In this document: piece by piece, positions 21,881-50,700 of the stretch
Position numbering within the stretch: position 1 is the first letter of the stretch
How the letters are laid out: every line of letters begins with the position of its first letter
Origin: a virus
Virus record (IMG/VR): IMGVR_UViG_3300030331_000022
Span: 1 to 51,657 of that record
Strand: one strand, 5' to 3'
Length of the DNA stretch: 51,657 bases
Notes under the pieces: generated by a model
Databases searched by the model: none
Told to the model about the DNA's origin: nothing
What the model saw: the letters and a program-made list of their open reading frames with translations, nothing else
Position numbers and translations under genes: made by a program

Positions 21881-21892
21881 TGTCAATACTTA

Positions 21893-21921
21893 ATTATACA
21901 AAAAATACAAATTTATATCAC
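21893..21921 (-). promoter_or_regulatory. Weak candidate leftward promoter
   Basis: GTGATA (21921-21916) and TATAAT (21898-21893) lie 17 bases apart on the minus strand. A start would fall about 5 bases before ATG 21880, leaving almost no leader. The -35 is a poor match. Confidence 0.35.
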
Positions 21922-21941
21922 TTAACATACAGTTTAAGTGT

Positions 21942-22018
21942 TATCATTGTACGTGATTTAGTTAATGTATTTATAAAGTAAGTTAATGTAGCATTATAAA
22001 TGTATCATTGTACGTGAT
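21942..22018. repeat. Direct repeat pair TATCATTGTACGTGAT
   Basis: Identical 16-bp copies at 21942-21957 and 22003-22018, 61 bp apart (about six helical turns). Each contains a dyad ATCA-N7-TGAT and each is followed two bases later by AGTTAA. A third AGTTAATGTA lies between them at 21981. The even spacing suits cooperative binding of a regulator. Confidence 0.75.
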
Positions 22019-22109
22019 ACAGTTAAAGTGTAGGCCACCAAAAACTCTCTAGTATAGTTTTACACATTATAAGAACCTTGTCAATCCCTAAAATACATTT
22101 TACTACAAT

Positions 22110-22127
22110 ATTGTAACAATTGTAACA
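22110..22127. repeat. Tandem 9-bp repeat ATTGTAACA x2
   Basis: ATTGTAACA occurs twice head to tail (22110-22118, 22119-22127) and continues ATT. It lies 30 bases downstream of the -10 of the leftward promoter at 22157-22185, where an operator could act. Confidence 0.6.
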
Positions 22128-22156
22128 ATTTGTGATACACATTCTGTATGGAAACC

Positions 22157-22185
22157 ACTATATATGTAATGTGGTTAACAGTCAA
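22157..22185 (-). promoter_or_regulatory. Candidate leftward promoter
   Basis: TTGACT (22185-22180), 17-base spacer, TATAGT (22162-22157) on the minus strand. It would drive the leftward run starting at 21880 with a leader of about 270 bases that includes the 9-bp tandem repeat and both 16-bp direct repeats. Confidence 0.5.
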
Positions 22186-22471
22186 TTTTACTGATCTGTG
22201 TAGATGTACATACACATATAACGCCTACCCCCCGTATGGCCCCTGCCTACCTGCTGACGTGTGCTTACCTAGTCGCATATCAGGCATCATGCTTGCAGGT
22301 GAACAGGCATAATGCAGACACATCCACCACGCATGAGAAAACCTCAACAATTTCAATAGCATATCAACTACCGACAACTGTTATGCAATCAGTTGCCATG
22401 CAATAGCATGAAAAAAAGGCTAGGATTTTCAGCAAGATAGTGTGTTGCAATAGCCGATTACAAAATACCCT

Positions 22472-22608
22472 ACCCCCTATGGGGGTGGTGGCTGATTGAA
22501 CCGTCCAACATTGGACAGCTTGAAAGCCTCACGAGTTTCGTGCACGAACTGCGGTATCGAAGATACCTGTAGTCACACGGGAAACGGCACGGGCAGAGGA
22601 TCACGTGA
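22472..22608. repeat. Cluster of short perfect palindromes upstream of the early genes
   Basis: Successive dyads: ACCCCC-TAT-GGGGGT (22472-22486), GTCCAACATTGGAC (22503-22516), TTCGTGCACGAA (22537-22548), GGTATC-GAA-GATACC (22553-22567) and TCACGTGA (22601-22608). A further one, CAACTG-N9-CAGTTG, lies at 22375-22395. None is followed by a T run, so they are not simple terminators. Candidates are operators or origin-type cruciforms. Confidence 0.7.
22503..22516. promoter_or_regulatory. Palindrome GTCCAACATTGGAC, copy 1
   Basis: A perfect 14-bp palindrome in non-coding DNA 210 bases before the first early gene. It is one of a family GTCCAAYRTTGGAC found nearby at 23129, 23427 and 24585. Copies 1-3 share CC just before and copies 1 and 2 share AG after. 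A repressor or activator operator is the simplest reading. Confidence 0.7.
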
Positions 22609-22623
22609 AGCTGAAATCACCTA

Positions 22624-22713
22624 CTCTATCTCTCCATGTTACAGATAGTTTTCTATCTCTCCCTTTAGGGTGAGAGAGATATAAAACTCTCTTATGTAAC
22701 ATTAGAGATAGAG
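22624..22713 (+). promoter_or_regulatory. Long hairpin in the early leader
   Basis: Outer arms CTCTATCTCT (22624) and AGAGATAGAG (22704-22713) pair fully; then ATGTTACA (22636-22643) with TGTAACAT (22695-22702); then AGTTTTCTATCTCTC (22647-22661) with GAGAGATATAAAACT (22674-22688, one mismatch); the tip is CCCTTTAGGG. In RNA this gives one long stem with small internal loops, ending two bases before the AAAGGGG preceding ATG 22728. It may control translation, RNA stability or processing, or act in replication. Confidence 0.75.
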
Positions 22714-22727
22714 AAAGGGGCCACCAA

Positions 22728-23300
22728 ATGGCAAAATCAACAGCAAAACCACAAGTTGAAGGAACTTCAATCAATGCCGACATCAAAGAGGGCAAAGCCC
22801 TTGGGTCAATCTGGAGACAGACCAACAGTCTGAAACAGACCATCAAGGCCAATGGCTTCGACACACGGCTTGGAAAGCTGATGCAGAAGTTGAAAGCTGC
22901 ATCTTCGATGGATAATGGTCAAATATCCCGTCAAGTATTGACGACTCATGGCATCCATTGCATTGATCGTAGAAGACGATCTGAGGCTTTGTGGTTCGTT
23001 GAAAACGAAGTTGAGGTTCGTGAGTTTATTGCTAAAGCAAAATACAAAGGTTCCTCTCTTACAGCTTTACAAGCTGCAATGCGTAAAGCTGCCAAAGGCA
23101 GTGAAGATCAACCTGCTAAAGCAGAACCGTCCAATGTTGGACAGTCTGAACCTACCGAGCAGCCAAAGGCTGAACGTCCTAAGATCACCCACACTGTAAT
23201 GGTGAATACCATTCTGGCTCAGACCAAGCTCAACAACCTTGATCTTGAAAAGATCATTGAGGATCTTATGGCTGCTATTCCTGCAAAGGCAGCAGCATGA
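22728..23300 (+). CDS. First early gene, function unknown
   Basis: A 190-residue protein. The N-terminal 125 residues are basic and helical (LGKLMQKLKAASSMDNGQIS, GIHCIDRRRRSEALWFVENE), a linker rich in Ala/Glu/Pro follows, and a C-terminal helical segment (NTILAQTKLNNLDLEKIIED) could dimerise. A palindrome of the GTCCAAYRTTGGAC family lies in the linker coding sequence (23129-23142). No family recognised. Position directly after the structured leader suggests an early host-takeover or regulatory protein, which is inference. Confidence 0.75.
   Translation: MAKSTAKPQVEGTSINADIKEGKALGSIWRQTNSLKQTIKANGFDTRLGKLMQKLKAASSMDNGQISRQVLTTHGIHCIDRRRRSEALWFVENEVEVREFIAKAKYKGSSLTALQAAMRKAAKGSEDQPAKAEPSNVGQSEPTEQPKAERPKITHTVMVNTILAQTKLNNLDLEKIIEDLMAAIPAKAAA
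23129..23142. promoter_or_regulatory. Palindrome GTCCAATGTTGGAC, copy 2
   Basis: Perfect 14-bp palindrome within the linker-coding part of the first early gene (encodes part of EPSNVGQ). Preceded by AACC and followed by AG, as copy 1 is preceded by ACC and followed by AG. Confidence 0.65.
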
Positions 23301-47721: not shown

Positions 47722-50700
47722 CTATATAAAACTACCCAAAATACTACTACCAATACTTGTTTTTAAATCAGAAGTAAGCAATGCTCCAATAAGAGCACCG
47801 AATCCTTCACTTACAGCAAAGTCTTCTTTTAGTTTTGCTAAATCAACTGTTGTGTCAGCATTTAATTGTGCTAGTGCTAATTCTTGATATCTTCCTCTAT
47901 CATTTTCTGCAGATGTCCATGCCCAATTCATATTATCCGAATAAAATTGCCACAAGTTATTATATGCCGTAGTAGAATATCCAAGCAAAGATGCAGCATT
48001 TATTTCATTTGCTCTATTTATTGCTTGATTATCTGCAGTTGCAATTTGCCTACGCCACTGAGCATTTGCCTGATCAATCACAAGTCTATTCTGTGCATTA
48101 AATTGTTGACGTTGATTATTTATTTCTGTATTGAATCTTTCAATAACATTAGTTTGCCCTGCATTAAACTGCGCCTGTGCATTTGCTTGTGATGTATTAA
48201 ACTGTGCAGTATTGTTTGCTAAACTTGCAAAAAACTGATCTGTTTGATTTTGTGATGTAGCATTAAACTGTGCAGCAGCATTAATTGCAGCTTGATCAGT
48301 AAACAATGCTTGCGTTCTCTGTTGTGCTCTAAACAATTCGGTTTGTTGTTGATTTGATAAATTAGCCATATCAATTTGTAAAAAGTTTTGTGCATTTTGT
48401 ACTGCAGCTTGTTGTCTATTAGACAGATTAGCCATGTCTAAATTTGCAAGTGCAGCAGCTTCTGCCATAACCATAGCTTGATTGTTATTTAAATTGGCTA
48501 AGTTCATACTGTTAGCAATACGAGAGTTTTCTAATGCTATCTGTTGCTCTGCAGTAAAGTTCATGTTAGCTACATCACTAACTTTAGCTGCATTAGCTAC
48601 ACGTGCCTGAAATGCTTGGTCAAACTCTTGACCTATAAATTGTGCTCTTTGTTGTGCTGCAAGCATAGCACGTTGTTGACGATTTGACAAGTTTTGTTGT
48701 TCAAAAGTTGCTTGTGTAGATGCATCAGCTTGAGCAATAGGTAACGCAGATTCCATAGCTGCCTGTACAAGTGCCTGTCCTGCTATACTACTAGCACCTA
48801 ATCCTCTTGCAGCCATTTGTGCACTTACTGCTCTCATTGCACCAGCAGCCCATGCAGGGGTAGCACCACCTTCAAATTGATCCATAAGACCTTCTAGCTG
48901 CCCTTGTACAGTAGCTTTTTTACTTGGGGTAGCTTCTGCAGCCTGTACTTGTTCTGTAAACTTAGCAGCCTTCTCTGCGTCTGCAGCCCCTGTTACAAGC
49001 TCACCACTTTGTATCTCACGGGTAACAGGATTATCAATTAATGTAGCTGTACCTTGTGCAGCTTGTAATCCTGTTATACTTGACTCTGCTTGTTGTTCTG
49101 CAGTAATAGTTTCAGGGGCATCAGCCTGTGCTGCTCGTGTACCTGCTGCAACTTTATCTACATCTGTTGCTGCAGTTTGTGCAGTCATAACTGTAGTAGG
49201 TGTAGCCACAGGCATACCTGCTTGTGTCGTAGTTGCAAGTGCAGTTGGCAATGCAGCAGAACCTGATACTTGTCCAGAGGCAGGATCAATAAACTGCCCT
49301 GCTTCTACACCAACTCCAATAGGAGTAACAATAGCACCAGACGGTAATCCTGGTGTTATAGCTTGAGTTTTCAATACATCAGTAAGAGTAGAACCCTCTG
49401 TAAATGTTTGTGATGGTATATATTGTTGGTCTAAAACACGAGGAGTTCCCCCTACTTGAAACTTTTGAGCCATACCACCTTGAGCCATTTGCATAGCCTT
49501 TTGAGTGTACATATCCATCTTTTGTTTTTTATCAGGATTATTGTTAAGATAATCATTAAATCCAGACATGTCACCTTGATATCCTAAACTACCTGCAATA
49601 CGTTGCATTGCTTGCGGTTTAAAACCTCCAAAAGATTGTGTCATAGGCATAGTTTGTTGTTGTTGTTGTTGCATGTTTGGAACCATACCCCCTTGCTGCA
49701 TAAAATAACTACCACCATAATTAGGATTATTAAGTGATATAGTTTGTGGACCTACAGAAGACTGTCCAAGCACACCAGTTGAAAGAGGTGTATACGTAGG
49801 CTGTTGTCCTAAAACAAATGTGCCTGTAGCAGGATTTACATTACCCATAAACTGTGGTTGAAATCCTTGCACTTGAGTTGTTGTTGCTTGTTGTGTAGGT
49901 ATTGGATTAATATTTACAGGAGTAACTTGTGGAGCTGTAGAAGTAGTAGGTTGTGCAACAGACATCTGTGGATTAATAATAGGTTGTTGTGTTTGTAAAG
50001 GTGTAGTAGATGGACCTGTATTTAGCACAACTGGTTCTATATTAGACTCTGTACCTGTATCTACATCAACATTTGCACCTACGTTAGCAGAATCTGATAC
50101 AACTGGATCTGGATCTGGATCTGGGTCTGGGTCTGGGTCTGGGTCTGGGTCTGGGTCTATCACTGGATCTGGATCTGGATCTGGTCCAGATATAGTAGTA
50201 GTATCTAATCCCATATTTTTTGTATGAAAATCGTCTAAAGCATTAGCCACCTTTTCATTAGTTTCAAGTCCTTGATCGTGTCTCAGTGCAGCAGTTGTAT
50301 CTTGTATTGTTATTGAACCATCATTATTAAAATCATATTGATCTATTTCATCTGCAGGTATTTTATCTAAACCAACGATATCTTCTTGTATTCTTTCCAC
50401 CATTGCCTTAGAAGAAAGCTCTGGACTATTTTCTATAAAATTACTAAAGGCACTTGTTATCTTATTATTTATTTCCTCTGTCTGCCCAAGATTTTTAAAA
50501 CCTCTTAATGCATTTACAACATCTCCAGTTCCAATGCTACCATCACCATTTATATCATAAATAGATAATTGATCTGTAGGTATTTCTTTTAATCCAACTA
50601 TATGTTCTTGTAATTTTTTAACAAAAGCAGATTTAACTTCAGGATCTGCTGAAGGAGGTACTTTTGTTATTGTATCATTTTCTACAATGTATCCCTTTTG

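Follow-up and report, generated by a model that had tools for sequence, protein, structure and literature searches.

In the viral DNA analysed here (51,657 nt, the whole stretch being referred to below as the window), a long hairpin at 22624-22713 ends where the ribosome-binding site of the first rightward gene begins. One such hairpin is carried by about 50 distinct relatives, the phages HMO-2011, CRP-1 and CRP-345 among them, right before the Shine-Dalgarno (SD) sequence of their own first rightward gene; its shape, direction and place stay constant although almost all of its bases have been replaced. The explanation preferred here, held tentatively and at a little under an even chance, is that the hairpin acts as an early-mRNA leader element that masks the SD until the stem is cut or bypassed, after which the 3' arm would refold. 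A stem before the SD of an early gene is of a kind already known; new, as far as could be checked, are the hairpin family itself, its strictly Watson-Crick evolution, the lock on its orientation and the self-folding 3' arm.

Phage and genomic setting

The window belongs to an HMO-2011-type phage by its DNA similarity to the Roseobacter phages CRP-345 and CRP-1 and the Puniceispirillum phage HMO-2011, and encodes a PolA-type polymerase, a DnaB-like helicase, an integrase, an SU10-like portal and a terminase; tRNA and tmRNA genes were looked for and none was found. Phages of the HMO-2011 type are among the most abundant and most widespread marine phages (PMC9038755). The leftward genes begin at 21886 and the rightward ones at 22728, with 841 bp between them that hold no convincing open reading frame (ORF), and the hairpin forms the right end of this intergenic region. 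The equivalent non-coding region of the relatives, of about 800-1100 bp, is conserved in all of them and rich in position-conserved palindromes. The product of the first rightward gene (gene 1), presumably an early gene to judge by its place, has no match in Pfam, PHROG or PDB, and its AlphaFold model is helical, of medium confidence (pLDDT 75.9) and without a fold match. The gene 1 family is fast-evolving, with the invariant motifs EGxxL..W, GFDTRLGK and RRRxEALWFxEN.

Structure and energy of the hairpin

RNA folding of 22600-22740 on the plus strand gives a minimum free energy (MFE) of -46.8 kcal/mol, whereas shuffled sequences average -27.1 (z -5.6) and 0 of 200 fold as low; both the long near-continuous stem proposed in an earlier note, made from the sequence alone, and its remark that the arrangement is unlikely by chance are thereby confirmed. 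The minus strand of the same stretch folds at -53.5 (z -6.4), and DNA folding of 22621-22715 has a z of -8.0. Among all 100-nt stretches of the window, the hairpin has one of the ten lowest energies (-39.3), lower than the minimum in each of five shuffled genomes (-31.6 to -36.7). The lowest stretch of the window, at 50101, is a hexanucleotide repeat within a gene. This hexanucleotide/12-mer repeat (CTGGATCTGGGT, 50091-50196), the strongest RNA fold of the window, is located inside a leftward gene of 1089 aa that has weak EF-hand-like matches.

The arms had been described as 10, 8 and 15 bp long with one mismatch. The 10- and 8-bp helices stand as described (Table 1), and the one correction concerns the number of mismatches: the inner helix, of about 16 bp, has two single ones, T.C (22646/22689) and C.T (22653/22682); its 5' strand (22644-22661) is also locally self-complementary (AGATAG..CTATCT). 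The stem does end just before the ribosome-binding site, the SD starting at 22714 directly after it. The hairpin is not an intrinsic terminator, as the stem is followed on the plus strand by AAAGGGG instead of a U-run and a terminator scan finds no site for it; a terminator-like site on the minus strand (22472-22486) is not conserved in relatives. Rfam returned 0 matches at the gathering threshold, and the best sub-threshold matches at a permissive threshold were plant miRNA precursors, which any long hairpin may give.

Table 1. Features of the hairpin, its upstream region and the start of gene 1 (window coordinates)
Feature	Position	Strand	Basis and remarks
Small covarying hairpin CATGC-AATA-GCATG	22397-22410		Comparison with relatives
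Conserved palindrome GTCCAACATTGGAC	22503-22516		GTCCGATGTCGGAC, CCCCAACGTTGGGG in relatives
Second conserved element, AGTTT..GCACGAACTGC-(variable hairpin, 22553-22567)-TGTAGT..GAAACGGCACGGGCAGAGGATC	22534-22606	+	Both-sided changes
Basal helix, 5' strand CTCTATCTCT	22624-22633	+	10 bp with 22704-22713; fold and covariation in relatives
5'-side internal loop CC	22634-22635	+	Opposite T 22703 (2x1 internal loop); 3-5 nt 5' bulge in relatives
Middle helix, 5' strand ATGTTACA	22636-22643	+	8 bp with 22695-22702; fold and covariation
Inner helix, 5' strand	22644-22661	+	About 16 bp with 22674-22691; T.C mismatch 22646/22689
Tip (CCTTTAGGGTGA)	22662-22673	+	Around CCCTTTAGGG (22661-22670); 0 inversions among 52 distinct hairpins
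Alternative local hairpin of 3' arm, AGAGAG-ATATAAAA-CTCTCT	22673-22692	+	Fold and family comparison
Inner helix, 3' strand	22674-22691	+	Fold
3-nt bulge TTA, 3' side	22692-22694	+	Fold
Middle helix, 3' strand TGTAACAT	22695-22702	+	Fold
Basal helix, 3' strand AGAGATAGAG	22704-22713	+	Fold and covariation
Shine-Dalgarno AAAGGGG	22714-22720	+	Abuts stem; same layout in 48 of 50 leaders
Small hairpin GCCA-CCAAA-TGGC holding start codon	22720-22732	+	Fold; similar GCCA..ATGGC in many relatives
First rightward gene (gene 1), 190 aa	22728-23300	+	ATG at 22728

Hairpin family and covariation

Through the gene 1 homologues in IMG/VR, 80 loci were collected, nearly all of which have a stem of 79-95 nt before the first gene. 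A covariance model built on one subfamily (alignment A2), with the window left out, matches the window hairpin at E 4e-7 and the HMO-2011 hairpin at 7e-4, and detects one plus-strand copy per phage, with 84 matches in a second set. The architecture is shared and consists of a basal helix, a 5' bulge of 2-5 nt, a middle helix of 7-8 bp, a small 3' asymmetry, the T.C mismatch and an inner helix, the stems having 33-45 Watson-Crick pairs and the tip carrying a 3' GA bulge.

A lack of compensatory changes in relatives had been named beforehand as what would refute the hairpin, and such changes are present. Across 40 distinct sequences, 97.7% of the cells are paired, and changes on both sides are found in 24 of the 28 pairs, which 0 of 500 shuffles reach; 170 cells changed two-sidedly against 10 one-sidedly, and no slid register comes near. 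The arms were misaligned in the MAFFT alignment A1, in place of which A2 and the covariance model-based A4 were used; A2, which was not fitted to the structure, gives 39 both-sided versus 2 one-sided changes.

At the equivalent place no such hairpin is present in the loci L164-L168 or in CRP-2, CRP-3, CRP-13 and CRP-603, so that the hairpin is not indispensable, and CRP-9 has a different, imperfect long stem there. Two further loci, L161 (2894-2989) and L204, bear hairpins of the same geometry at the same place that share almost no sequence with the rest.

Watson-Crick strictness and template switching

In ordinary RNA helices, a both-sided change passes via G-U, and G-U pairs can be seen. In the present family, G-U intermediates on the transcribed strand are practically absent despite the abundant both-sided changes: among 1797 Watson-Crick pairs of 52 distinct hairpins, a G.T mismatch occurs in 1 context versus A.C in 4, and a symmetric aligner finds G.T/T.G as rare as A.C/C.A. 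The terminator-like stems of the same contigs, taken as a rough control, have 26 G-U in 405 pairs and also 18 A-C. The small hairpins of the same intergenic region present the same stem with the loop in either orientation (22 stem/loop pairs; ACATC-AAA/TTT 10:9, ACAGT-ATA/TAT 6:9, TCCAA-CA/TG 33:10), the best single inversion being ACAGT-ATA-ACTGT versus ACAGT-TAT-ACTGT with identical flanks, and AT-rich loops of two or three bases can also recur in both orientations by chance. On the sequence evidence, the strict Watson-Crick pairing together with the neighbouring loop inversions is the footprint of DNA template switching, which can create and maintain stems and for which multiple compensatory changes and loop inversion have been proposed as footprints (PMC8794818). 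Since double changes can arise in one DNA-level step, covariation alone is no proof of RNA function.

The likeness to the template-switch hairpins of Monttinen and Loytynoja (2022; PMC8794818) lies in both-sided changes without visible intermediates and in loop inversions, which are met here in the hairpins neighbouring the long one. However, the former were shown mainly for rRNA genes and not for a phage intergenic region, and the long phage hairpin differs in being protected against inversion. An old inverted repeat without function, kept perfect solely by template switching at replication, would account for the strictly Watson-Crick arms and for the inverted loops next to them, as stems can be made and kept in this way (PMC8794818), but the same process would erase the recurrent mismatch and bulges and invert the tips, all of which are kept, and the place and direction of the hairpin relative to the SD are constant; it is scarcely credible that the hairpin is nothing else. 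Textbook covariation without G-U intermediates, beside freely flipping loops, is a warning for the inference of RNA function from covariation, and the intergenic region is a good natural case for template-switching studies.

Signs of strand-specific selection

The tip is inverted in 0 of 52 distinct long hairpins, whereas the adjacent small hairpins show loops both ways. The 5' bulge recurs, and so does the T.C mismatch, with 38 occurrences in about 46 hairpins. Of 50 leaders, 48 have the SD right at the foot of the stem and the ATG 6-10 nt further on, and in the locus L090 (2790-3000), where an extra small ORF separates the hairpin from the gene 1 homologue, the hairpin-SD junction is kept. 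The best local stem of the 3' arm has a mean of 5.63 bp over 57 hairpins versus 3.48 in shuffles (for the 5' arm, 4.37 versus 3.55), and the self-inverted repeat of the 3' arm is found in unrelated sequence versions, such as AGAGAG/CTCTCT, TGAGAGA/TCTCTCA, GAAATA/TATTTC and AAGGG/CCCTT. The orientation lock, the recurrence of bulge and mismatch, the SD abutment and the self-complementary 3' arm are unexpected from template switching alone, and together they argue for a probable strand-specific function, the four features not being independent tests because the hairpin sequences are related.

Possible overlap with a promoter

Of 47 distinct leaders, 19 have an exact TTGACA within the 50 nt that precede the middle helix, versus 0.6 expected, and TATAAT, TATAGT, TATATT or TCTAAT often stands 15-16 nt past it at the 5' bulge, which in relatives often contains a -10-like sequence; the locus L143 has TTGACA-15-TATAAT, and TTGACA also precedes the first gene in the hairpin-less L164, CRP-2 and CRP-603. 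The hairpin might accordingly be a DNA-level element, in which the inverted repeat overlaps the gene 1 promoter, with the -35 just upstream, the 5' bulge containing the -10 and the middle helix the start, and in which negative supercoiling extrudes a cruciform or hairpin that switches the promoter, only the inner part and the 3' arm being transcribed. Such an element would agree with the strict Watson-Crick symmetry without G-U bias, and has a precedent in the N4 promoter hairpin that, placed between the rrnB -35 and -10, abolished activity until gyrase was inhibited (PMC4496689). However, TTGACA stands anywhere from 15 to 28 nt before the hairpin, the -10 spacing met most often (15) is short, about 60% of the leaders, that of the window included, are without such a -35, and the fixed distance to the SD is unexplained by promoter overlap alone; this account, the main rival of the preferred one, is considered rather unlikely. 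A promoter scan of the plus strand of the window gave nothing above chance.

Given the consensus -35 in about 40% of the relatives, transcription may begin inside the hairpin in part of the family, and an RNA leader and an overlapping promoter may hold together. One such combination, put forward as an improbable guess, is a supercoiling-sensing early promoter switch built on the long inverted repeat, the DNA and RNA roles sharing one palindrome. The -10 would sit in the bulge that recurs on the 5' side, and host sigma-70 transcription of gene 1 would be turned off (or on) as the hairpin is extruded, in step with the topology of the incoming genome; the 3' arm, once transcribed, would bear its own 5'-terminal hairpin. 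If true, the shared palindrome would account at once for the strict Watson-Crick symmetry, the recurrent bulge, the lock on orientation and the self-complementarity of the 3' arm.

SD accessibility and the proposed leader switch

In the long leader of the window, the SD is predicted to be closed (GG unpaired 0.03), and in an RNA consisting of the 3' arm only (start at or after the tip) to be open (0.88), the RNA then starting with a short hairpin; the median SD accessibility of 48 leaders is 0.40 in full length and 0.76 with the 3' arm only, an opening upon sequence removal that is partly trivial. The closure in the window runs through a CCT 5' of the stem; a conserved anti-SD in the 5' flank, considered as a candidate, is present in the window and several relatives but is not general. 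Thus, the earlier proposal that the leader holds ribosomes off is plausible for the window, but the closure is not uniform across the family. Cutting by RNase III, also suggested earlier, is possible.

Under the preferred reading as an RNA leader switch, the hairpin of a large share of HMO-2011-type phages would act in a strand-specific way, as part of the leader of the first rightward mRNA. With this leader at full length, a stem of about 36 bp would form at the foot of the gene 1 SD and, in the window, would help to close it, with little of the first protein being made. The stem would then be opened, for which a cut of the long duplex by RNase III is the simplest route, or bypassed by a transcript starting inside the 5' arm, and the 3' arm, left alone, would refold into a short hairpin at the new 5' end, which may protect the message and leave the SD free. 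The model joins the observed structure, conservation, fixed place and direction, self-complementary 3' arm and predicted SD opening with transcription of the whole hairpin, RNase III cleavage and an effect on translation or stability, which we infer. The scarcity of G-U, unlike in ordinary RNA helices, counts against an RNA leader, since template switching explains the pairing at the DNA level, and the TTGACA just upstream in 19 of 47 leaders means that the basal 5' arm is perhaps untranscribed from that promoter in part of the family. No description of first-gene control in HMO-2011-type phages was found in the literature, and the single-copy hairpin marks a control point that is testable in cultivated members.

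Comparison with known leaders and promoters

A long duplex directly before the ribosome-binding site, as found here, is a feature of the RNase III-processed early leaders of the lambda N and T7 type. In the lambda N-gene leader, an RNase III hairpin is located between nutL and the N ribosome-binding site, and the T7 RNase III sites R0.3 and R1.1 are stems in early leaders just upstream of the SD. The phage hairpin likewise lies in the leader before the SD and differs from the T7 sites by its one copy per genome and its much longer, nearly perfect stem. The lambda N type has a nut site upstream and an N-like antiterminator as its first product, and the phage hairpin differs from it in that the leader has no lambda-type boxA (CGCTCTTTA) at one mismatch and that gene 1 is unlike known proteins. 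The leaders of lambda N and cIII and of E. coli adhE resemble it in a long stem that immediately precedes the SD of an early operon's first gene, in another conserved element upstream and in an SD exposed, or here predicted to be exposed, when the stem is opened or cut (adhE, cIII: PMC5371410), the SD being described for adhE and lambda cIII as occluded until RNase III cleavage (PMC5371410). However, the phage hairpin is distinguished by its strict Watson-Crick evolution, and its cutting is only proposed.

The N4 early promoters resemble the present case by an inverted repeat at an early promoter, the sequence being free while the pairing is kept (PMC4496689), but their hairpins are short, with a 3-nt loop at -11, and are read by the virion RNA polymerase, whereas the family stems have 33-45 Watson-Crick pairs; among the large proteins of the window searched for a candidate N4-type virion enzyme, no match to an RNA polymerase family was found. 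Stem-loops of the ompA type at the 5' terminus stabilise mRNA, and the 3' arm would be a 5'-end hairpin with a free SD if transcription starts inside the hairpin or the tip is cut. A full-text literature search gave no paper that joins HMO-2011-type phages with a hairpin, and the main HMO-2011-type genome paper makes no mention of a promoter, inverted repeat, stem-loop or intergenic element.

Upstream elements of the intergenic region

Upstream of the hairpin, at a distance of some 20 nt in the window and of up to about 60 nt or more in relatives, comes a second conserved element, its family form being AGTTT..GCACGAACT-(variable perfect hairpin)-AGT..GAAACGRC..GSGCAGAGGATC. Its pairs behave like those of the hairpin, with both-sided changes in 9 of 15 and one-sided changes in none. 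The element is common to HMO-2011, CRP-1, CRP-345 and about 100 viral contigs and has no Rfam family match. The 3' core of the element has matches in 107 viral stretches and only 7 in 84,980 bacterial and archaeal genomes, which is about the number estimated for chance, and an occurrence outside phages was rejected. The several covarying helices from 22397 to 22715, with the riboregulator-like element among them, might belong to a single long, structured non-coding RNA extending across the intergenic region and ending at gene 1 by happenstance; however, there is neither an Rfam match nor a terminator, the conserved blocks farther left resemble promoter or operator DNA, and this reading appears very unlikely.

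The conservation of the non-coding region in all relatives, its many position-conserved palindromes and the turn of the GC skew there would fit a replication origin or DNA-processing signal that comprises the whole 841-bp region with its small inverted repeats, the hairpin being one part of it. However, the skew tracks gene direction throughout the window and is therefore uninformative on an origin, no initiator gene or iterons were identified, and the tie of the hairpin to the SD would be left unexplained, which leaves the origin a decidedly improbable explanation; nothing specific supports the replication signal that had been suggested for the hairpin itself. An integrase att site was considered and dropped, because the integrase is absent from several HMO-2011-type subgroups (PMC9038755), whereas the hairpin is tied to the gene 1 SD.

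Many small position-conserved palindromes, with stems exchanged and loops in both orientations, are spread over 21887-22620 and its equivalents. The blocks at 22055-22085 and 22150-22202 (TAGTTTTACACATT..TGTCAA; GGAAACCAC..GTGGTTAACAG..TTTTACTGATCTGTGTA) are strongly conserved without covariation, and the TGTCAA corresponds to TTGACA for a possible leftward promoter.
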